From the NCBI GenBank assembly GCA_028876525.1, contig JAGWRI010000008.1, positions 1 through 45,163 of the forward strand: a stretch of 45,163 nucleotides of DNA. Reading direction: 5' to 3'. This document shows positions 10,336 to 29,416 of this stretch, in pieces. The stretch comes from Gemmatimonadota bacterium. Lineage in GTDB: Bacteria > Gemmatimonadota > Gemmatimonadetes > Gemmatimonadales > Gemmatimonadaceae. The notes beneath the pieces are model-generated. The model searched no databases. It had not been told where the DNA came from and worked only from the letters and a program-made list of their open reading frames with translations. A program made the position numbers and the translations under genes. Numbering within the stretch: the first letter of the stretch is position 1; each line of letters starts with the position of its first letter.

Positions 10336-10352
10336 GCGGCCCTATCGGCCGC
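10336..10352. terminator. Possible bidirectional hairpin at the sufS/acyltransferase junction
   Basis: GCGGCC (10336-10341) and GGCCGC (10347-10352) form a 6-bp stem with a 5-nt loop that covers the acyltransferase stop codon. It has no T-tract, so its role as a terminator is weakly supported. Confidence 0.25.
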
Positions 10353-11490
10353 CGAGACTGGGAACCGAGAGTGCCTCCCGGGCCTGCAGGCGCCCCAGGG
10401 TCATCTTCCGCAGCGCCCGTCTCGCCGGGCGTTCGATCGTCAGATAGCACGCGGCAGCGACGGCGACGATCACGGCGGCGCCCAGGAAGAGTGCGGCGAC
10501 CCTGACGGTCACTGACGCGGCGACCACCTTGCCCAAAGGTAGGAATCGAACCAGAAGCGCGATGGTCAGGACGTGCGTCATGTACAGCGAGTAGCTCGCG
10601 TTCCCCAACGCTTCGAGCGGCCGCCAGCTCCACACGGCCGACACCCGGCTTCCGTGGCGGCCAAGCGCTCCCACGAGCACGAAGAAGATGGACAGGAATG
10701 CCGCACGTTGCACCCGCGGGTCCGCCACCGCGTACGGAATGAGCACCCCGAGGAGAACGCAGAGATCCGGTACGCGGCTCCGACGCTGCGCGCCCGACGG
10801 GCCCCGGCTGAGAGCGGCCAGCGCCACCCCGCCGACGAAGGTCGGAACGACGACGACGATGCCTTCGAAAGGCAGGCCGCTGCCAAGCCAGTATACCCAT
10901 GCGGACGCGCCCGCCATCGCTACGGCCGTCAGCTGCCAGGACCGGCGGGTGAATCCGCCGGCGGCCGCGACGAGCAGCGGGAACAGCAAGTACACGAACC
11001 ATTCGGAGCTGATCGACCACGCCGGATAGTTCCACGTCAGATGGAGGCGCGGCGTCCACGACTGCACAAGCAGGAGATTCGCGAGGAAGCTCTCCGGCGT
11101 GTGCGCGCCATCCGTTGGCCAACCGTGGTGTCCGACCACCAGCAGCGTGGCGAGCAATGTGGCCAGATGGACCGGGTACACCCTGGCGATCCGCAGGAGA
11201 AAGAACCGGACGGTGCTTCGAGACGAGCGCTGCGCGAGCGCCGTGCGATACCGGTACCAGAGCACGTACCCGCTCAGCACGAAGAACAACGGCACCGCCA
11301 GGCCCCCGAGTCGCAGGAGCCGGTTGAATGCGGAGGCCTCGGGCAGCAGCCGCTGGAATACCAGGCTGGCATGAAGCCCGACGACCCACGCGGCGGCCAG
11401 CCCGCGGAGGGCCGTGAACGGCACGATAGTTGGCGGGCCGCCCCCTACCGGCTCGTCCGCGGCCACGGACGGGGACGACGGGTGGTGCAA
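10342..11490 (-). CDS. Acyltransferase-3 family integral membrane protein (OafA/YrhL-like)
   Basis: About 382 residues with roughly ten hydrophobic helices. Family motifs are visible: FTALRGLAAAWVVGLH near the N-terminus with the catalytic-type His, then GGLAVPLFFVLSGYVL, RFFLLRIARVYPVH, and SISSEWFVYLLFPLL. These enzymes transfer acyl groups to sugars of O-antigen, exopolysaccharide or peptidoglycan, and the acceptor here is unknown. The TTG at 11490 has GGAG 6 nt upstream on the minus strand and starts 22 residues before the first helix. A GTG at 11466 is an alternative. An ATG at 11676 would run across the divergent regulator's promoter, so I rejected it. Confidence 0.88.
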   Translation of the reverse strand: MHHPSSPSVAADEPVGGGPPTIVPFTALRGLAAAWVVGLHASLVFQRLLPEASAFNRLLRLGGLAVPLFFVLSGYVLWYRYRTALAQRSSRSTVRFFLLRIARVYPVHLATLLATLLVVGHHGWPTDGAHTPESFLANLLLVQSWTPRLHLTWNYPAWSISSEWFVYLLFPLLVAAAGGFTRRSWQLTAVAMAGASAWVYWLGSGLPFEGIVVVVPTFVGGVALAALSRGPSGAQRRSRVPDLCVLLGVLIPYAVADPRVQRAAFLSIFFVLVGALGRHGSRVSAVWSWRPLEALGNASYSLYMTHVLTIALLVRFLPLGKVVAASVTVRVAALFLGAAVIVAVAAACYLTIERPARRALRKMTLGRLQAREALSVPSLGGR

Positions 11491-11584
11491 TCGGTTCTCC
11501 GGCGAATGCTGTTCCCGGAATGGCGGCGACGCATGCCCGCTCCGGCCGCGCGTTGGCGCCTTGCCGACCCGGCTTCCAAGATGC

Positions 11585-11610
11585 ACTATAGAGTTGCGAA
11601 CTGCTATAGG
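11585..11610. promoter_or_regulatory. Candidate divergent promoter, acyltransferase / BTAD regulator
   Basis: An AT-rich island with ACTATA (11585-11590, TATAGT on the minus strand) and TATAGG (11605-11610, plus strand). These could serve as -10 boxes for the two divergent genes. No convincing -35 boxes are visible. Confidence 0.3.
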
Positions 11611-11674
11611 ACCGTCGGACGTCCGGTGACCGGAGGGGCGGAGTCGTTGTCTGGAATGACAATCCACCATTCCC

Positions 11675-14600
11675 ATGTCAGACCGACGTCAGAACGACTC
11701 CGCCCAACCCGTGCCGGCTTCCGGCCCCGCCTCGCTCCTGCTCGAGACGCTGGGCCGGGCCGCGCTGCTGGCTGCCGGACCCGCCGGCCCGCCCGCGACG
11801 ATCTTCGGGCCCAGCAAGCCGCTGGCCCTCATCGTCTACCTCGCGTCGGTACCCGGCCAGACGGCCACCCGCGAGTTCCTCATCGACCTGCTGTGGGCCG
11901 ACCTGGACCCCGAGGCGGCCCGCCACGCGTTCCGGCAAACGCTCTGGTACATCAAACAGAAGGCGGGCCGGCCGGTGGTCAGAGCCGCCGGCGAGGCGAT
12001 CACGCTGGCCGAGCCGATCACGTCCGACCGCATGGACTTTCTCACCGCGGTCGAGCGGCCGGACTTCGAGGGCGCCGTGTCGCTTTACCACGGCGAGTTC
12101 CTCCCGAACTTCGCGGTGCCCGGCGGCATCGAGTTCGAACACTGGGCGGATCTCGAACGCCAACGCCTTCGCGATACGTTCACCCGCGCGGCTGAGCACA
12201 TGGTGCGGCACTGGCTCGCCATGGCCCGCCACCGCGACGCGGTAGCGCTCGCCCGCCGAGCCCGCGACGTGGCCCCCCTCAGCGAGCGCACCTGGCGGCT
12301 GCTTCTCGAAAGTCTGATTTCGGCCAACGACGCCCTGGGCGCTGCCATGGAGGCGGACGCGCTCCAGAAGATGCTGGCCGACGAGGACCACGAGCCCGAG
12401 CCCGCCACGCGCGCGCTCCTGCGGGCCGCCCGTCAGCTCTCCTCCGAACCGCGATCCGACGGCGCGGCGACGCCCGGTATCGTGGCCGAGCTCGTGGGCC
12501 GCGAAACCGAATTCTCCACCCTGCTCGCCGCCTGGAGCGAAGCGAAGACCGGCGTGGCCCGAAAGGTCTGCATCGTCGGCTCCGCCGGGATCGGCAAGAC
12601 GCGGCTCATCACCGATACCGCGGCCCGCCTCCGCGCCACGCGCGCCCGCGTGGTGTGGGTGCGCGCCAATCCCGGCGAGCGCGAGATTCCCTACGCGTTC
12701 CTGAGCAAGCTCGCCGGGGCGCTCGCCACGCTCCCCGGTGCCGCGGCGGTGTCACCCGCGTCGGCGTCGGCGCTGGTCGCGCTCAACCCCACGCTGTCCA
12801 GCTCGTTCAGCGCCGCGGCCGACCGGGCGACCGGGCCCGACGCGCTCAGAAACCGGACGATCGCCGTCCACGAATTGCTCGCCGCCGCGGCCGACGAAGC
12901 GGCGGTCGCCGTGATCGTGGACGATCTGCACTGGTCCGACCGCGACTCGACCCGTGCCTTTGCCGGGCTGTCCGACCTGCTCGAGCACGAGCGCGTGCTG
13001 CTCGTCTCCGCCGCCCGCCCGTCAAATGGCGGCGGGCAGGAAATCGCCCGCGACGCGACGGTCATCCGACTCGTTCCGCTCACGGTCGCGGACACGGGCG
13101 CGCTGCTCGCCAGCGTGGCCGCGCTTCCGCCGTCAGGCATCGGCCAGGCACTCCCCGGCCTGCTCCGCGACGCCAGCGGCGGCAACCCGCTGCTGGCCAT
13201 CGAGACGCTCCAGTTCCTGCTCGATCAGAGGTCTCTCAAGCTCGAGCGGGAATCGTGGGTGGTCCAGGACGAGCCGACCGTTCGACAGGCCCTCAACGCC
13301 GGCGGCGCCCTCCGGCGCCGGATCGAAGCCCTGGACGCCATGGAACGCTCGGTGCTCATCGCCGTGGCGATGTCGGGCGTGCCGGTGCCCGCCGGCTTCG
13401 CCGCGGACGTCGTGCGCCGTCCCCTGGCCGACGTCGCGGCGGTCCTCCACGGACTCGAGACCCGCGGCATGATCGGCCACGTGGGCGAGGGCTGGGAGCC
13501 CGCGCACGATCAGATCGGAGAGATGGCGCTCGCGACGCTGCCACCCGAACGGCGCGCCGCGATCGAGCTCGAGGTCGGGCGCGCGTGGATGCACGGCGCG
13601 CCGGACGACCGCGCGCTGAGGCGGGCCGGCGTGCACTTCCTGCGCGCCGACGATCGCCGCGCCGTCGCGAACGCGTTCGCCGCATGGGTGCGCCTCGTCC
13701 GCCGGTCCGGAGACCGGCGCCCCGCAGCCGCGCTCGCCACGGAGTTCCTGGATCGTGAGGACGCGACGCTGGTCCGCGCGCTGGTGCAACACCTGCCGAT
13801 CCACCACCGGTACGGCGGCGCCCGCTGGCGCGCCGCCGCCACGATCGCCTTCGTCGCGCTGGCCAGCGCGGCGGCCACCTGGCGATGGACCCGCACGCCG
13901 GAGCCGCCCCCCGACGAAGTGCTCCTGGCCGTGGCCGTGGACTCGGCGGGCGACACCACGGCCTATCGCGTGCCCATACGCCGCGATCGCTGGACCGGCG
14001 GCGACGTCCTGGTCCCGTCGCGGGAAGGACGGCGCGTTCACGTCGCGCTGCCGGCCACCCTCGGCGACTACGCCCTGACGGCCGACGGGAAGGCCTGGAT
14101 CTCCCACGCCGCCATGCCGGATTCGGGCGGCGACGACCTGGTCATGGACCGCCTGTCGGGCGGCCAGCGCCGTCTCACGTGGAACCCCGGCGACGACGTG
14201 AACCCCGACTTCTCCCCCGATGGCAGGCGCCTGCTGTTCATGACGGGTCGCTTCGACTCGCTGAGCCACGCGCATCTCGCCGTGATGGACATCGCCACAG
14301 GACAGGTGCAGCAGCTGACGAGCGGCGGGCCGAAGGATGGGAGCGCCAAGTGGAGCCGCAACGGGCTCCGCATTGCGTTCGTCCGGCTGAGCCTGACGGA
14401 TGCGCCCGACTCGGTGTGCACGATCGCGCCGAATGGCGAGGATCCGGAGTGCCGTCCCACGGCCTACGTCACGGCGGTGCTGGGGTGGATAGACGACGAT
14501 CGCGTATTGCTCACCCAGCAGATCGGCGGCGGCACTGCGCTCGAGGTGTACGACGTCGCCGACGGATCGTCGCGGCGCATCTTCCACAGCGCATGGGGCA

Positions 14601-15763
14601 GCTTCGACCTGAGCCCGGACGGCCGCTGGGTCGCGTGCCGCTGCCGCGAGACCGCCGCGTCCGCCATGGAGTCGGTGGTGTTCCCGTTGGATCACCCCGA
14701 GCTGGCGCGAACGATCGCCGGAAGTCCGCTCGACACCCGCCTGGTGTGGACGCTGTGGGACGACCGGAGGCCCGCCGACTACGTGAACGCCCTGGATCTC
14801 TCCCTGCCGGCCTCGGGCGTCCAACTCGGCGTCGCCTACCGGTTCCCCCTCAACGGGGTCACGGTGAGCGGGGAGCGCGTTCCGCTTCCCTACGCGGCGC
14901 TCGCTTCGCTCGATACGGCGATCGTGCGAGTGCTGCCCGGCCTCCGGCTTCTGCCCATCGCCGCCGGAAGCGCACGCATCGTCGTCTCGGCGATCGGATG
15001 GCGCACCGACACTCTCGCCATGCACGTGGTGCCCGCCGGCGACTCGATCGCGGTGCGTGAAGACTGGTCACACGGCATTGACCGGCAGTTCGTGCCGTAC
15101 GGCGTGCCCGCGCCGCTCGTGGTGCGGGACGCGGCGGGACATCCCGCGTTCCTGAACAACGGCGACGGCGACTTCGCGAGCGGGGCGTACACCCGCGAGC
15201 GCCTCAGCGAGGCCGGCGGCATCGGATTGGAGGCGCTGGTCTCCGCTCCCATCAACTCGATCCAGTGGCAGGCCGAGAACATCACGCTATATCCGGTGCG
15301 CGACTCGGCTGCCCTGGCGCGGTGGGACCGGAAGACCGGGTACCCGCCCTTCGAGGGGGCAACCGGCGACGGAGAGTGCAGCTTCTCGTATCCGGCCGAG
15401 GAAGGAGTGCGCGGAACGGACGAGGTGTTTGTCGGTCACTCCATCGTGAATCTGGATTCCCTTCACCTCACATCGCTCGATACCGGCCGCTGGTTCCGGG
15501 TGCGCCTGCAGATCTTCGCCGACGGCCGCTGCGGAGTGGCCGTTGACGGGCGGCCGATCGCCCTGACTTCCGTCGGTTCCGTTCCCGACGCGCGGTACGT
15601 CGCCGCCATCGAGGGCAGCTCCGTCCACACCCGCATCCTCGCCGGCCCGATCGAGGTCTGGACCGGCATCAAGCCCGGCGTGGATTGGCTCGCGTTCGAC
15701 ACGGCGCACGCCGCGCTGAAGCCGCGACGCGCGTTCAGCAGAGGTGCACCGCGGTCGCCTTGA
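11675..15763 (+). CDS. Membrane-spanning BTAD/STAND-type regulator with extracytoplasmic beta-propeller
   Basis: 1362 residues. A winged-helix SARP-type domain (about 20-110; KPLALIVYLASVP, REFLIDLLWADLDPEAARHAFRQ) is followed by a BTAD helical-repeat domain (about 120-255). A signal-transduction ATPase follows, with Walker A GSAGIGKT (302-309) and Walker B VAVIVDDLHWSD (about 411-422). Next comes a short helical region and one transmembrane helix (about 718-737). The remaining 620 residues, predicted outside the cytoplasm, have TolB/WD40-like blades (NPDFSPDGRRLLFM, SAKWSRNGLRIAFV, SFDLSPDGRWVACR) and then a beta-rich, LamG/jelly-roll-like C-terminus. I infer a single-chain receptor that binds a ligand outside and regulates DNA or transcription inside. 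Divergent from the acyltransferase; its 3' end overlaps the convergent transporter ATPase by 29 nt. No Shine-Dalgarno site is seen at the ATG. Confidence 0.85.
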   Translation: MSDRRQNDSAQPVPASGPASLLLETLGRAALLAAGPAGPPATIFGPSKPLALIVYLASVPGQTATREFLIDLLWADLDPEAARHAFRQTLWYIKQKAGRPVVRAAGEAITLAEPITSDRMDFLTAVERPDFEGAVSLYHGEFLPNFAVPGGIEFEHWADLERQRLRDTFTRAAEHMVRHWLAMARHRDAVALARRARDVAPLSERTWRLLLESLISANDALGAAMEADALQKMLADEDHEPEPATRALLRAARQLSSEPRSDGAATPGIVAELVGRETEFSTLLAAWSEAKTGVARKVCIVGSAGIGKTRLITDTAARLRATRARVVWVRANPGEREIPYAFLSKLAGALATLPGAAAVSPASASALVALNPTLSSSFSAAADRATGPDALRNRTIAVHELLAAAADEAAVAVIVDDLHWSDRDSTRAFAGLSDLLEHERVLLVSAARPSNGGGQEIARDATVIRLVPLTVADTGALLASVAALPPSGIGQALPGLLRDASGGNPLLAIETLQFLLDQRSLKLERESWVVQDEPTVRQALNAGGALRRRIEALDAMERSVLIAVAMSGVPVPAGFAADVVRRPLADVAAVLHGLETRGMIGHVGEGWEPAHDQIGEMALATLPPERRAAIELEVGRAWMHGAPDDRALRRAGVHFLRADDRRAVANAFAAWVRLVRRSGDRRPAAALATEFLDREDATLVRALVQHLPIHHRYGGARWRAAATIAFVALASAAATWRWTRTPEPPPDEVLLAVAVDSAGDTTAYRVPIRRDRWTGGDVLVPSREGRRVHVALPATLGDYALTADGKAWISHAAMPDSGGDDLVMDRLSGGQRRLTWNPGDDVNPDFSPDGRRLLFMTGRFDSLSHAHLAVMDIATGQVQQLTSGGPKDGSAKWSRNGLRIAFVRLSLTDAPDSVCTIAPNGEDPECRPTAYVTAVLGWIDDDRVLLTQQIGGGTALEVYDVADGSSRRIFHSAWGSFDLSPDGRWVACRCRETAASAMESVVFPLDHPELARTIAGSPLDTRLVWTLWDDRRPADYVNALDLSLPASGVQLGVAYRFPLNGVTVSGERVPLPYAALASLDTAIVRVLPGLRLLPIAAGSARIVVSAIGWRTDTLAMHVVPAGDSIAVREDWSHGIDRQFVPYGVPAPLVVRDAAGHPAFLNNGDGDFASGAYTRERLSEAGGIGLEALVSAPINSIQWQAENITLYPVRDSAALARWDRKTGYPPFEGATGDGECSFSYPAEEGVRGTDEVFVGHSIVNLDSLHLTSLDTGRWFRVRLQIFADGRCGVAVDGRPIALTSVGSVPDARYVAAIEGSSVHTRILAGPIEVWTGIKPGVDWLAFDTAHAALKPRRAFSRGAPRSP

Positions 15764-16778
15764 GCGCCGCCACGACCTCGCGCCCCGGCGCGAGCCCCAG
15801 TTCCTCAGCCGACCGCGCGGTGATCACGGCCACGAGCTCCACCCCGCCGGCGTCCACGGTCACCCGCGCCAGCACGCCGGACGGCGCCACCTCCACCACG
15901 CGCGCGTCGAGCTGATTGCGCACCGACGATTCGCGCCGCTCGGGGGCGAGCGCGATCTCGTCGGCCCGGATCACGGCGTGCGCCTCGCCCTCGGGCACGT
16001 CGCTCACGGCGTGCAGCACGAGCCCGCCGCTCGTGAACTCCACCACCCGCTCGGCGTCGGGCGAGCCGTTCACGCTGTGCACACGGCCCGGCACGACGTT
16101 CTCGGCGCCCACGAACTCGGCCACCGCCGGCGACGCGGGGCGGCGGAACACGTCGTCGGGAGATCCGACCTGCAGCACCCGCCCCCCCTCGAGCAGTACG
16201 ACGCGATGGCCCAGCCGCCCGGCCTCGTTGAAGTCGTGCGTCACGTGCAGCACGGTCATCCCGCGCTCGGCGTGCAGCGCGCGCACCTGCCGCCGCACGA
16301 GCACGCGCATCCGCGGATCGAGCGCCGAGAAGGGCTCGTCGAGGAGCAGGATGTCGGGGCACGTGGCCAGCGCGCGGGCCAGCGCCACGAGCTGCCGCTC
16401 GCCTCCGCTCAGGGCGTTCACGTCCCGATCGAGCAGCGCGCCGAGTCCAAAGCGCTCGACCATCTCGCGGGCCGTCTCGCCGTCTGCCGTGCCGTAGGCG
16501 ACGTTCTCGGCCACCGAGAGATGCGGGAAGAGATAGGCATGCTGATACACGATGCCGATGCGCCGCCGCTCGGGCGGCGTGCGCGTGACGTCGGCGCCGC
16601 GCAGCCACACGGTGCCCGACGCCACCGGCACGATGCCGGCGATGGTCTCGAGCAGCGTGGTCTTGCCAGCGCCGGCCGGCCCGATCACCACGCCGTAGCT
16701 CCCCGCGTCGATCTCGAACGACACGTCCCGCAGGGCGAACGTTCCCGCGGTGGCGGTGACCCGATCCAGCCGGATCAT
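15735..16778 (-). CDS. ABC transporter ATP-binding protein, molybdate/tungstate/sulfate type (ModC/WtpC-like)
   Basis: 347 residues. Walker A GPAGAGKTT (33-41), Q-loop VYQHAYLFPHLS, signature LSGGERQ (123-129), Walker B ILLLDEPFSALD and the switch His (VTHD) are intact. The C-terminal 75-80 residues form a TOBE/Mop-like beta domain (LDARVVEVAPSGVLARVTVD, VVAALKATAVHL), which in ModC-type ATPases binds the oxyanion and regulates transport. The ATG at 16778 overlaps the permease TGA (ATGA), so the two form one operon. A longer start at 16985 would lie inside the permease. The substrate could be molybdate, tungstate or sulfate; molybdate/tungstate is more likely, given the Mop-like end. Confidence 0.88.
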   Translation of the reverse strand: MIRLDRVTATAGTFALRDVSFEIDAGSYGVVIGPAGAGKTTLLETIAGIVPVASGTVWLRGADVTRTPPERRRIGIVYQHAYLFPHLSVAENVAYGTADGETAREMVERFGLGALLDRDVNALSGGERQLVALARALATCPDILLLDEPFSALDPRMRVLVRRQVRALHAERGMTVLHVTHDFNEAGRLGHRVVLLEGGRVLQVGSPDDVFRRPASPAVAEFVGAENVVPGRVHSVNGSPDAERVVEFTSGGLVLHAVSDVPEGEAHAVIRADEIALAPERRESSVRNQLDARVVEVAPSGVLARVTVDAGGVELVAVITARSAEELGLAPGREVVAALKATAVHLC

Positions 16779-17590
16779 CCTCGGCGCTCCGGCAGCGAGT
16801 CGGGGCCGTGCACGGTGCGCAGCACCGCGATGGGCACGAGGGCGAGCAGCACCAGCACGGCGGCCACGGGAAGGGCGCTCTTCAGCCCGTACGCGGTGAA
16901 TCGCTCGTAGCTGAGCACGCTTGCCACCTTCGGATTGTACGTCAGGACCACGATGGCGCCGAATTCGCTGATCGCGCGCGCCCACATCACGACGCCGGCC
17001 GAGACGAGCCCGCGCGCGGCGAGCGGCAGCGTCACGCGGCGCACGGCGCGCCAGGGCGGATCGCCGAGCGTGCGGGCCACCGCCTCCAGGCGCGGGTCCA
17101 CGCGGTCGAACGCCTCGCGTGCCGCGCTCACGAGCAGCGGCGCCGACACGAACAGCATGGCGCAGACGATCCCGGTGCGCGAACCGGTGATCTCGAGGCC
17201 GGCGGCGAGCAGCGCCCGGCCGGCCGGCGTGCCGCGGCCGAGCACGAGCAGCAGCGCGATGCCGGCCACGGGATGCGGCACGACGAGCGGCAGGTCGAGC
17301 AGGGCGGCGAGGAGACCGCGCCCGCGGAACCGCCGGCGCGACAGTACGTACGCCAGGGGGATCCCGCCGGCGGCGCCGACCAGGGTGGCGAGCGTCGCCG
17401 TTTCGAGCGTGAGCCCCAGGGATGCCCGCAGCTCGGCGTCGCTGGCCAGCGCCCGCAGGCCGTCCAGCCCCCAGCCGCCGACGATGCCGGCCAGGGGCGC
17501 CACCAGGAAGAGGAGGAGCAGTGAGGCCAGCGCCGCCGTGACGATCGTGGCCGCGCGCTGCCCGCCGTGCCGGGGCTCAGGACGCGGCAT
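16775..17590 (-). CDS. ABC importer permease, molybdate/tungstate/sulfate type (ModB/WtpB-like)
   Basis: 271-residue inner-membrane permease with about six helices. The BPD_transp_1 (EAA-loop) region is visible as EAVARTLGDPPWRAVRRVTLPLAARGL, followed by MWARAISEFGAIVVLTYNP, which is strongly typical of ModB/CysT permeases. The ATG at 17590 starts shortly before the first helix; a TTG at 17647 would add a Pro-rich leader and is less likely. It is coupled to the ATPase. No periplasmic binding-protein gene lies upstream; the next gene upstream is on the other strand. Confidence 0.88.
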   Translation of the reverse strand: MPRPEPRHGGQRAATIVTAALASLLLLFLVAPLAGIVGGWGLDGLRALASDAELRASLGLTLETATLATLVGAAGGIPLAYVLSRRRFRGRGLLAALLDLPLVVPHPVAGIALLLVLGRGTPAGRALLAAGLEITGSRTGIVCAMLFVSAPLLVSAAREAFDRVDPRLEAVARTLGDPPWRAVRRVTLPLAARGLVSAGVVMWARAISEFGAIVVLTYNPKVASVLSYERFTAYGLKSALPVAAVLVLLALVPIAVLRTVHGPDSLPERRG

Positions 17591-17873
17591 GGGCGGGCGC
17601 TTCGGTGGGCCGACCGCCGGGGGCGGCGGACGGTTCGGTCCGGGCAATCACCGTGTGGTCGCCGGCAGGGGGGAACCGCCGGCGCTCGAACCCGCGGGTT
17701 CGGGCTCCGAAACCGGGCACGCCGCGATGGCGTACGGGTGGGCGCGCGCTGAGGCGGCCGCGGCGAGGCGCACGGTCAGCGGGAGACGGGGGTTCGGCAC
17801 GTCTCAAGTATGGCAGCGTCCCGTGCGCTCGCGCTATAATGCAGCGTTCCCCCTTCCCTCCCCTGCCATTCCC
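17591..17873. promoter_or_regulatory. Divergent regulatory region with palindrome and TATAAT box
   Basis: 283 nt without a gene. CGAACCCGCGGGTTCG (17687-17702) is a perfect 16-bp palindrome, a candidate operator for the transporter genes. TATAAT (17835-17840) is a consensus -10 box for the downstream ABC ATPase, about 33 nt before its ATG; no clear -35 is visible. Confidence 0.5.
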
Positions 17874-25654: not shown

Positions 25655-28600
25655 ATGAGATCCGCGCTGTGCATCGCCCTGCTGGCCCTCGGGGCCCTGG
25701 CCTCCACCGCTGCCGCGCAGGGCGGCTCGGTGGACATCATCCGCGGGCGGGTCACGGGGCCCGGCGGGCAGCCGGTGGCCAACGCCACCGTGACGGCGCA
25801 GTCGCTGAGCGACGAGACGACGCGTTCGGCGCGCACGAACGCCGACGGCCGGTTCACGATCCTGTTCGCGGGCGGCGGCGGCGACTACATGATGAGCTTC
25901 ATCGCCATCGGCATGGTGCCGCTGAGCTTCGAGGTGCAGAAGACGAGCGACGACGACGCGGTGGTCCTGGCCAACGCGCGGATGGAGGGGGCGCCGCAGC
26001 AGCTCGACGCGGTGCGCATCAACGGCCGGCAGCGGCCGACCGCGGCCGACGCCAACCGCCCCGACATCGGCGGGGTCGAGCAGAACATGAACAGCCAGGG
26101 GATCCCGGTGGACGTGATGGGCGACCTGTCGGCGATGGCGGCCTATCTCCCGGGGGTGACGGCAATCGCCAACGCCGACGGAACGATGGGGTTCTCGGTG
26201 CTGGGCCTGAGCCCGGACCAGAACAACATCAGCCTCAACGGCCTGACCTTCGGCGGCACGCTGCCGCGTGACGTGCAGGTGAGCGCGCGGCTCTCGACCA
26301 CGACCTTCGATCCGTCGCGCGGCGGGTTCAGCGGCGGGCAGATCACGGCGCGGACGTTCAGCGGGTCGAACTACGTCAACCGCACGCTGCACGTCACGTT
26401 CGACCATCCCGACCTGCAGTGGGCGAGCCCGACCTCGCGGGCCCTGGGGCAGCAATACACCAACGTCGTGGCCAGCGGGGCGCTGAGCGGGCCGCTCGTG
26501 TGGAACAAGCTGTTCTACAACACGTCGTTCCAGATCGGCCAGCAGAGCAGCGGGCTGCAGACCCTGCTCAACACCAGCGCCTCGGGGCTCGAGAGCGTGG
26601 GCATCGCGCAGGACTCGGTGAACCAGCTCCTGTCGTACATGCAGGGCGCGGGGATTCCGGCCACGCTGTCGAACATCCCCGGCACGCGGCTCAACGATCA
26701 GGGCGCGCTGTTCGCGCAGTTGGGCTTCTCGCCCACCGGCACCGACACCTGGGGGCTGCTGTTCAACGGCTCGTGGAATCAGTCGGGCGGGGCGTCGCTC
26801 GGCACGTCGGCCGTGCCGGCCCACGGCGGGCAGACGACGCGGCGCAGCGGCACGCTCCAGCTCACCCACGCCGGCTACTTCGGCTACGGATTCCTGAACG
26901 AGACCAGCGCGTCGTTCAGCGCCACCGGCTCGGACGCCAGCGCGTACCTGCTGCTGCCGTCGGCCAGCGTGCTCGTGACGTCGACCCTGCCCGGCACCGC
27001 CTCGGGGGTGTCGTCGCTGCAGTTCGGCGGCAACTCGAGCTATCCGCAGACGGCGACCAACTTCCAGTGGGAGTTCTCCAACGCCACGTCGTGGTTCAGC
27101 GACGACAACACGCACCGCCTCAAGCTCACCGAGGACGTCCAGGTGAGCCGCTACATCCAGAACCAGAACGCGAATTCGCGCGGCACGTTCGTGTTCAGCT
27201 CGCTCGCCGCGCTGGAGGCCAACCAGCCGACGTCGTTCACGCGCCGCCTGGCCCCGGCCATCCGGAGCGGCGACGTCGTGACGTACGCGGCCTCGATCGG
27301 CGACGCCTGGCGTCCGCTGGACGCGCTGCAGGTGCAGTACGGGTTCCGGGCCGAGGCCAGCCGGTTCAGCACCGCGCCGCAGTACAATCCGCTGGTCGAC
27401 AGCGTGTTCGGCCTGCGGAACAGCGTCGTGCCCAACGACGTCACGGTGAGCCCGCGGGTGGGCTTCACCTGGCGCGTGGGCTCGGCGCCGGAAATCGAGG
27501 GCTTCCGCGGCGCCTTCCACCCGCCCCTGTACGTGATCAGCGGCGGCGTGGGCGAGTTCCGCAACAACCCGACGGCGACCCTGATCTCGAGCGCCGTGGA
27601 CCAGACCGGCCTGACGGGCGCGGCCCAACAGGTTACCTGCGTGGGCGCCGCGGTGCCGACCCCCGACTGGGCCGCTTACGCGCAGAATCCGGCATCCGTC
27701 CCGGCCACCTGCGCCGACGGCTCCCTGGGCACGGTGTTCGCCAACTCGGCCCCGAACGTGACGCTGTTCAGCCCCGGCTACCGCACCCAGCGCAGCTGGC
27801 GCGGCAACATCGGCATCCAGGGAATGCTGACGCCGCTGTTCAACGAGAACCTGACGTTCACCTATTCGCGCAACTACGACCAGCGCGGCACCGTGAACGC
27901 AAACTTCGCCGACGTCGTGCAGTTCACGCTGCCCGCCGAGGACAACCGGCCGGTGTACGTGGCGCCGACGGCCATCGTGCCGTCCACGGGAGCGATCGCC
28001 GCCGGCGCCAACCGCCTGTCGCCGGCGTTCTCCCAGGTCAGCGAGGCGGTGTCCGACCTGCGGTCGTACACCCGCGAGCTGCAGTTCGGCATCTCGCCGC
28101 GCCAGTTCAATTCCACCGTCAACTGGACGCTCACCTACGTCTACCGCGACACGAAGCAGCTCGCGCGCGGCTTCGGCGACTACACGGCGGGCGACCCGCT
28201 GGCCACCTACTGGGCCGGCAGCGGCCCGCAGCACCAGTTCAACCTCAACACCGCGATCACGCTCGGCGGCGCGGTGAGCGTGTCCACCTTCGTGCGCGTC
28301 AGCTCGGGCAACCGGTTCACGCCCGCGGTGGCGGGGGATGTGAACGGCGACGGGTCGAGCAACGATCGCGCGTTCGTGTTCGACCCGGCCACCGTGGCCG
28401 ACACGGCGGTGCGCGACGGCATGCAGGCGCTGCTCGGCGGCCTGTCGGGGAGCACCCGCCGGTGTCTGGTGAATCAGCTCGGCACGATCGCCGGCCGGAA
28501 CAGCTGCGCCGGCCCGTGGTCGGTATCGATGAGCGCGCTCAATGTGCAGCTCGTCTCGGACCGCGTCGGGCTCCCGTCGCGAATGACGGTGGGCCTCAGC

Positions 28601-29416
28601 CTGTCGAATCCGCTCACCGGCGTCGACGCGATGGTCCACGGCGACCGCCTGGCCGGGTGGGGGCAGCAGCCGGTGGTCGATCCGACGCTGCTCTACGTGC
28701 GGGGGTTCGATCCCAATGCGAAGACGTTCAAGTACGAGGTCAATCCGCGGTTCGGCGCGGCGCCGGCGGCGCAGATCGCCTCGTACTCACCCTTCCGGGC
28801 CACGCTCGACGTGCGCCTGGCGGTGGGGCCCGACCGCAACCTGCAGCAGCTCGAGCAGCTGTTGCGCGGCGGCGGGCGGGGAGGGCGCGGCGGGATGTTC
28901 GGCGGGCGCGGCGGGCCGGGGGGCGACGCGAACGCGCGGGCGGCCAGCCGCCCCAGCGAGACGATGATCAAGAACCGCTACGTGCGCGGCTACCCGAATC
29001 CCATGGACCAGCTCCTGCGCCAGAAGGAGCTGCTGGCGCTCACCGACGCGCAGACCGACACGCTCATCAAGATGAACAAGGCGTTCACGGCGTCGGTGGA
29101 CTCGATCTGGACGCCGGTGGCGCACTACCTGGCGGGCCTGCCGGAGCAGTTCGACGTGAACGACGCATTCTCGCACGTGAGCAAGGGACAGGACACGACC
29201 ATCGCGCTGCTCGTGGCCTACGCGCCGCGCGTGAAGGGGCTGCTCACGGCGGCCCAGCTCCAGAAGCTCCCCGCGTTCCTGGCGGCGTTCCTCGATCCGG
29301 AGACGCTGCGCGAGATCCGTCCGGGCGGCGCGTTCGGCTTCGGGTTCGGCGGCGGGGCCGGCGGGATGGGGCGCGGCGGGTTCGGGGGCGGCGGGCGGGG
29401 GGGACGGGGCGGCTGA
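25655..29416 (+). CDS. TonB-receptor-like outer-membrane protein with CarboxypepD-regulatory N-terminus and periplasmic helical tail
   Basis: 1253 residues. A signal peptide (MRSALCIALLALGALASTAAAQ, cleavage about residue 22) precedes a carboxypeptidase-regulatory-like beta-sandwich (about 25-105; GRVTGPGGQPVANATVTAQS) and a plug-like segment (about 115-240; LSMAAYLPGVTAI-type region, GLSPDQNNISLNGL). A long beta-barrel with alternating aromatic strands and large loops runs to about 1065. After the expected last strand (ATLDVRLAVG) comes a Gly/Arg linker (about 1070-1092), then a helical segment with LTDAQ (about 1128) and LLTAAQLQKL (about 1195) motifs, then an RGG-like tail (about 1228-1253). 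No TonB box is obvious. The substrate is unknown. OAR/SusC-like proteins are close relatives. Confidence 0.85.
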   Translation: MRSALCIALLALGALASTAAAQGGSVDIIRGRVTGPGGQPVANATVTAQSLSDETTRSARTNADGRFTILFAGGGGDYMMSFIAIGMVPLSFEVQKTSDDDAVVLANARMEGAPQQLDAVRINGRQRPTAADANRPDIGGVEQNMNSQGIPVDVMGDLSAMAAYLPGVTAIANADGTMGFSVLGLSPDQNNISLNGLTFGGTLPRDVQVSARLSTTTFDPSRGGFSGGQITARTFSGSNYVNRTLHVTFDHPDLQWASPTSRALGQQYTNVVASGALSGPLVWNKLFYNTSFQIGQQSSGLQTLLNTSASGLESVGIAQDSVNQLLSYMQGAGIPATLSNIPGTRLNDQGALFAQLGFSPTGTDTWGLLFNGSWNQSGGASLGTSAVPAHGGQTTRRSGTLQLTHAGYFGYGFLNETSASFSATGSDASAYLLLPSASVLVTSTLPGTASGVSSLQFGGNSSYPQTATNFQWEFSNATSWFSDDNTHRLKLTEDVQVSRYIQNQNANSRGTFVFSSLAALEANQPTSFTRRLAPAIRSGDVVTYAASIGDAWRPLDALQVQYGFRAEASRFSTAPQYNPLVDSVFGLRNSVVPNDVTVSPRVGFTWRVGSAPEIEGFRGAFHPPLYVISGGVGEFRNNPTATLISSAVDQTGLTGAAQQVTCVGAAVPTPDWAAYAQNPASVPATCADGSLGTVFANSAPNVTLFSPGYRTQRSWRGNIGIQGMLTPLFNENLTFTYSRNYDQRGTVNANFADVVQFTLPAEDNRPVYVAPTAIVPSTGAIAAGANRLSPAFSQVSEAVSDLRSYTRELQFGISPRQFNSTVNWTLTYVYRDTKQLARGFGDYTAGDPLATYWAGSGPQHQFNLNTAITLGGAVSVSTFVRVSSGNRFTPAVAGDVNGDGSSNDRAFVFDPATVADTAVRDGMQALLGGLSGSTRRCLVNQLGTIAGRNSCAGPWSVSMSALNVQLVSDRVGLPSRMTVGLSLSNPLTGVDAMVHGDRLAGWGQQPVVDPTLLYVRGFDPNAKTFKYEVNPRFGAAPAAQIASYSPFRATLDVRLAVGPDRNLQQLEQLLRGGGRGGRGGMFGGRGGPGGDANARAASRPSETMIKNRYVRGYPNPMDQLLRQKELLALTDAQTDTLIKMNKAFTASVDSIWTPVAHYLAGLPEQFDVNDAFSHVSKGQDTTIALLVAYAPRVKGLLTAAQLQKLPAFLAAFLDPETLREIRPGGAFGFGFGGGAGGMGRGGFGGGGRGGRGG

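Follow-up and report, generated by a model that had tools for sequence, protein, structure and literature searches.

The window analysed here is a 45,163-nucleotide stretch of DNA from a Gemmatimonadota metagenome-assembled genome (3.2 Mb, 94% complete; contig C349). On its plus strand, at 11675..15763, lies an open reading frame encoding 1362 amino acids that begins with ATG, although the start codon may instead be the GTG at 11711. The N terminus is a winged-helix DNA-binding domain (residues ~19-112, 11729..12010) with its recognition helix at ~79-96, followed by a BTAD of TPR-like helices (PF03704; residues ~113-257, 12011..12445) and a STAND/AAA_16 NTPase (12485..13069) that carries Walker A GxxGxGK[T/S]R, Walker B DDxHW and the sensor R448. 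The STAND winged-helix/lid region, with G503-x-P505-L506 and the invariant H611-D612, occupies 13070..13810, together with a helical arm that comes after the lid and ends at the invariant R712. A single predicted transmembrane helix (residues ~718-736, 13826..13882), with arginines on its cytoplasmic side, precedes a PD40/TolB-like beta-propeller (residues ~748-1032, 13916..14770; cysteine pairs 915-926 and 988-990), a Big_2 bacterial Ig-like domain (residues ~1036-1122, 14780..15040) and a C-terminal all-beta, jelly-roll-like domain (15047..15709; cysteine pair 1235-1286), which is the most conserved portion of the ectodomain. An acyltransferase (Pfam Acyl_transf_3; 10342..11676, minus strand), whose true start is probably further inside the annotated ORF, is transcribed divergently, and an ABC ATPase and permease pair is found 3′ of the receptor gene at 17.9-20.1 kb.

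The first-pass annotation had described this protein as a SARP winged helix, BTAD, STAND ATPase, membrane helix and outer propeller in one chain, and Pfam, family comparison and structure modelling agree with that order of domains. In the protein itself, Pfam detects BTAD at 130-250 (E = 5e-11), AAA_16 at 272-444 (1e-20) and PD40 at 832-856 (2e-6), and the winged helix alone scores below threshold. In the family as we define it, 24 near full-length sequences including this one, Trans_reg_C is recognised in 18, BTAD in 20, AAA_16 and PD40 in all 24, and Big_2 in 15. The full design is kept in every member and the STAND catalytic motifs are unbroken throughout; Walker A, Walker B with its acidic pair, GxP and the winged-helix domain are all present, as is the SARP hallmark of an N-terminal winged helix joined to a BTAD. 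AlphaFold models built with family alignments have a pLDDT of 88 for residues 2-745 and a mean pLDDT of 85 for residues 738-1362. Foldseek matches the first model to the AfsR SARP domain as seen in the cryo-EM activation complexes 8k60 and 8hvr (TM-score 0.68-0.69 over the target, E 2e-6 to 9e-6), and to STAND proteins that include MalT, CED-4, plant NLRs and 6mfv. The second model is all-beta. Its propeller resembles TolB in both sequence and fold, as the annotation had proposed, and the segment C-terminal to it gives profile matches to Big_2/Ig structures, a domain that the annotation had overlooked. The proposed LamG-like end is more weakly backed: Laminin_G_2 is detected in one member of 24 (E = 0.008), SHBG matches at E = 0.97 and a GH9-family chain at E = 0.004, so that, together with the all-beta secondary structure, kinship to LamG or CBM is only hinted at.

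The topology of the protein was predicted from the family as a whole. In the 24-sequence alignment, the 17-residue window at 718-722 has the top hydrophobicity and the lowest charge of all positions (mean KD 1.91, 2% charged at 720), and AlphaFold places one helix here (model residues 714-738). The hydrophobic segment follows the invariant R712 in all 24 members, and 18 additional distant loci, the majority of them belonging to other families within the class, have it too. The pattern of cysteines is the strongest topology evidence. Each of the 24 ectodomains has an even number of them (4 or 6); the 915-926 and 1235-1286 pairs are near-constant, and 988 and 990 are jointly present or jointly absent in 23 of 24, the exception having 973 with 988. 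In the cytoplasmic part there are 1-10 cysteines per member, odd or even, without pattern. Even numbers and co-variation point to disulfides formed in an oxidising compartment, indicating that the ectodomain lies outside the cytoplasm.

How widespread is this architecture? A contig scan with one query gave a single relative, and whole-genome searches were therefore used to assemble the family. Of 298 genomes sampled across the phylum, 45 encode a complete ectodomain, defined as at least 500 of 613 profile positions, none of them outside the class. The ectodomain is joined to SARP-family cytoplasmic sequence in all 18 distant loci checked, two of which (L097 and L099) have the BTAD without a STAND domain, so the STAND switch is not strictly required in every member. 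A second group of ~1040 amino acids combines the same SARP-STAND-helix part with a different outer domain of ~300 amino acids that has no Pfam match. The source genome encodes two further BTAD proteins, a soluble-looking SARP-STAND protein (C75) and a SARP-helix-TPR protein without STAND (C34), the helix of which was read from sequence. Among plasmid relatives there is one partial match, a Meiothermus BTAD protein.

The winged helix retains the features expected of a DNA-binding head. When the DNA-contact residues of AfsR (PMC10936776) are mapped onto the family alignment, W74 and R87 are invariant, Q48 is replaced by lysine or arginine in all members, position 94 is basic in 23 of 24, and T88 and R92 have become mostly glutamine and tyrosine. 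Since most contacts are kept and 88 and 92 are changed, the head can bind DNA, probably with a sequence preference different from that of AfsR. An any-sequence repeat search upstream of family genes returned 11 bp as the sole outstanding spacing, with 3.85 direct repeats per family upstream region against 1.10 in 264 upstream regions of neighbouring genes. The repeat unit is YTGACGC and the consensus operator is built of TCTGACGCTCG repeats, TAACG replacing TGACG in more distant relatives. Operator-like repeats also occur at +30 to +42 within the conserved xDxxLTL codons of L010, L012, L013, L020 and L049; the statistics were therefore redone on sequence lying wholly 5′ of the start codon, where the enrichment of [TA][GA]ACG-N6-[TA][GA]ACG persisted (17 of 34 versus 8 of 263, Fisher p 8e-13). 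A position-weight score was trained on the same sequences, and our conclusion thus rests on the unsupervised spacing test and on a later test of the -10 element. Published SARP promoters have 11-bp direct repeats with the -10 element 8 bp past the 3′ repeat (PMC10936776), and here an A...T -10 signature lies 8 bp past the second heptamer in 13 of 29 sites, and in two at most at any other offset. The combined layout is found in the family taken as a set and in a relative, G056, the fixed 8-bp distance being seen both in the G056 sites and in the homologues' own promoters. These candidate operators are tied to the family by gene proximity, and other SARP paralogues of the same genomes could bind them.

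G056, which encodes a full-length member 40% identical to the Gemmatimonadota protein in the window as well as further SARPs, offers a view of a putative regulon. YTGACGN5YTGAC occurs 17 times in its genome, mostly in front of genes, versus once for the reversed pattern, and 9 sites fit the full operator-plus-(-10) pattern versus none for its reverse. Predicted targets include radical SAM/B12 enzymes, an AMP-binding enzyme, a glycosyltransferase and predicted lipoproteins, and the SARP acting on them could be any of the several in G056.

In the source genome, YTGACGN5YTGAC occurs three times, one of them at the start of the receptor gene (11677-11692, minus strand), and in the genome of a sister species once, at the same place. 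The candidate operator of the receptor gene consists of two 11-bp direct repeats, TCTGACGTCGG TCTGACATGGG, extending over the start codon (11672..11693, minus strand); a site in 11585-11675 had been anticipated, and the best candidate straddles the start codon instead. A candidate promoter of the receptor gene, the sigma-70-like TTGCCG-N17-CACTAT, lies ~85 bp upstream (11561..11589, plus strand), and the operator is kept in the sister species, as, from comparison of the two loci, the promoter appears to be. The receptor gene has the repeats only, reversed and without a good -10, and the pattern YTGACN6YTGACG does not match its site. As the operator is 3′ of the promoter and reverse-oriented, autorepression fits better than activation, and the arrangement of these predicted elements suggests autoregulation that is more likely negative. 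A strict search of the source genome for a complete SARP operator plus -10 promoter found none. A secreted GH3 glycosidase gene (G000:C248:8902) preceded by a TGACG-N6-TGACG pair was rejected as a target for want of a -10 at the SARP offset, and it remains a lead.

A SARP head, a STAND switch, one predicted membrane helix and a disulfide-type all-beta ectodomain are thus combined in one chain that is conserved through one Gemmatimonadota class, with predicted SARP-type 11-bp repeat operators near the family genes. We consider it likely that the protein is a transmembrane one-component transcription regulator of the ToxR/CadC kind, made from SARP and STAND parts. The ectodomain of propeller, Ig-like domain and jelly roll would bind a ligand, for which the annotation had proposed an external polymer, or a partner in the envelope beyond the inner membrane. 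The resulting change would travel along the membrane helix and the helical arm and switch the STAND ATPase between its closed ADP and open ATP states. The SARP heads freed in this way, from at least two receptors, would occupy neighbouring 11-bp repeats and, still anchored in the membrane, recruit RNA polymerase. The proposal of the first-pass annotation that output needs no phosphorelay is supported along with the single-chain topology, itself backed by family hydrophobicity, the cysteine pattern and the modelled helix.

Could the helix be a mere anchor, with an outside signal triggering cleavage near it and a soluble SARP-STAND fragment (~715 amino acids) then finding its promoters? Such regulated proteolysis would suit the weakly conserved helical arm that precedes the helix, a transmembrane sequence that is unconserved apart from its hydrophobicity, and a cytoplasmic part that, taken alone, is built like a soluble medium SARP (SARP plus NB-ARC; PMC10972967). 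However, no conserved protease gene was found near the family loci and no cleavage motif was noticed, and an ATPase switch coupled to a conserved ectodomain needs no cleavage; we regard proteolysis as unlikely. The genome-wide spread of predicted sites does not separate it from action at the membrane.

A much less probable alternative is that the hydrophobic stretch is no membrane helix, and that the protein is soluble and cytoplasmic, a large SARP whose propeller serves internally as a sensor or scaffold, much as the TPR domain does in AfsR. The segment in this protein is short, alanine-rich and marginally hydrophobic, with a rough dG of +1.2, and falls outside the top windows of a plain 19-residue hydropathy scan; the topology assignment therefore relies on the family, on the cysteine pattern and on domains of extracytoplasmic type. 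On an approximate hydrophobicity scale, however, the same segment outranks every other membrane candidate in 23 of the 24 sequences, several of them with negative rough dG, paired cysteines occur only C-terminal to it, and TolB and Big_2 domains are typical of extracytoplasmic proteins. The annotation had made its reading depend on a true membrane helix and on a winged helix with DNA-binding residues, and both are supported, the first by the family evidence and the second by W74, R87, K/R48 and the basic residue at 94.

The annotation had also linked the receptor to the acyltransferase as a possible target and ligand link, and had suggested a survey of homologues for conserved neighbours. No gene is conserved across the family loci, and only L071, L073, L081 and L083 share several genes. 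In the sister species, where the SARP gene is 62% identical and is likewise followed by the ABC ATPase and permease pair, the SUF operon lies directly next to the SARP gene and no acyltransferase separates them, and in three same-genus genomes no acyltransferase homologue was found by a search run without a positive control; synteny thus rules out this lineage-specific gene as a conserved partner. A receptor dedicated to it and to surface-sugar modification, for which the divergent genes and the reversed operator pointing towards the acyltransferase might speak, is largely refuted and scarcely credible, since the sister locus has operator, promoter and receptor without it and the acyltransferase-facing strand has no A...T at the SARP -10 offset.

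In Streptomyces, SARPs are known to activate antibiotic genes as soluble proteins, and the familiar STAND proteins, among them MalT and the NLR immune receptors, are likewise soluble switches. With AfsR and other large SARPs the receptor shares the N-terminal winged helix and BTAD followed by a STAND/NB-ARC ATPase, the SARP fold, and, for its family taken as a set, the candidate 11-bp direct repeats with a -10 element 8 bp downstream; it differs in its YTGACGC heptamer and in the residues at 88 and 92. In AfsR the C-terminal sensor is a TPR domain in the cytoplasm, and ATP and Ser/Thr phosphorylation control the protein (PMC10936776), whereas the Gemmatimonadota protein has a membrane helix and an extracytoplasmic sensor of ~600 amino acids in this place, with no TPR detected by Pfam after the ATPase, and so departs from the AfsR type of large SARP. 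With MalT/LAL and NLR-type ATPases it has in common the AAA_16/NOD core, Walker A and B, GxP and the WHD H-D, but these are soluble, with the sensor on the ATPase side rather than across the membrane. Only the blade module is common to the receptor and TolB/PD40 proteins, TolB being a free periplasmic protein of the Tol-Pal system. In ToxR and CadC no ATPase separates the DNA-binding domain from the TM helix. Here BTAD and a STAND ATPase intervene, and the protein falls outside the ToxR/CadC family proper, as do the two distant relatives without STAND, which keep the BTAD. The cytoplasmic winged helix, single membrane helix, outside C-terminal sensor and lack of a phosphorelay are nonetheless those of ToxR/CadC-like transmembrane transcription regulators (TTRs), and by its predicted topology the protein belongs to the broad TTR class, whose members unite a DNA-binding domain with one or more TM helices in a single chain, as defined in the TTR census (PMC10269533). 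The main text of the census mentions neither SARP, BTAD, WD40 nor Gemmatimonadota, a review of SARPs recognises small, medium, large and SARP-LAL classes with no membrane class and without use of the word membrane (PMC10972967), and our literature search found no paper on membrane SARPs or on a SARP-STAND-TM-propeller architecture. In its build the protein belongs with the SARPs as well as with the STAND proteins, and the best reading is that it would work like a ToxR/CadC-type transmembrane regulator.

On balance, though with less assurance than for the receptor itself, we favour the view that the Gemmatimonadota possess class-wide, modular transmembrane SARP receptors, in which a head with or without an NLR-like STAND domain is joined by one helix to exchangeable outer sensors (propeller-Ig-jelly roll, the ~300-amino-acid module that Pfam does not recognise, or a TPR type) and drives canonical 11-bp-repeat SARP promoters from the membrane. 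Outside signals may reach genes directly in these bacteria, without a relay of partner proteins. With a STAND switch interposed in a single chain between the outer sensor and the SARP, an envelope signal would have a very short path to the genes, with an ATP-gated threshold midway, and the predicted operator, YTGACGC repeated at 11 bp with a -10 element 8 bp further, makes the regulons searchable in many soil and water bacteria in which regulation has been little studied.

Within the receptor family, only one conserved neighbourhood was seen, that of four loci (L071, L073, L081 and L083) which have several neighbouring genes in common. In the window, an acyltransferase gene (10342-11676) lies between the SUF genes and the receptor gene; the sister species has no acyltransferase there, and the gene was either gained by insertion in the window lineage or lost in the sister species. 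After the receptor gene, on the minus strand, are ABC ATPase and permease genes (15735-17647), by appearance of the molybdate/sulfate type, whose place is occupied in the sister locus by two different genes. Positions 25655-29416 encode a large protein (1253 aa) that is predicted to be secreted and is possibly a TonB-dependent receptor.

Among relatives, L097 (genome G124) and L099 (G139) have the SARP-helix-propeller build without the STAND ATPase. SARP-STAND-helix paralogues of ~1040 aa each (L026, L027, L028, L030 and L043-L046) carry a different outer domain of ~300 aa, conserved and with a W-x-DGND motif, to which Pfam gives no match. The window's own genome, G000, apparently encodes a further membrane SARP (L004/L086, contig C34), consisting of a winged helix-BTAD, a hydrophobic helix and a TPR-rich region predicted to lie outside, without STAND.

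Elsewhere in G000, a TGACG-N6-TGACG pair (L120, contig C248, 8902-8917) precedes a secreted GH3 glycosidase gene, and no -10 element was found at the SARP distance. In the relative G056, loci L151, L156, L161, L165 and L176-L186 have YTGACGC repeats spaced by 11 bp, followed after 8 bp by a -10 element, and behind these sites are genes for radical SAM/B12 enzymes, an AMP-binding enzyme, a glycosyltransferase and lipoproteins, an apparent SARP regulon.
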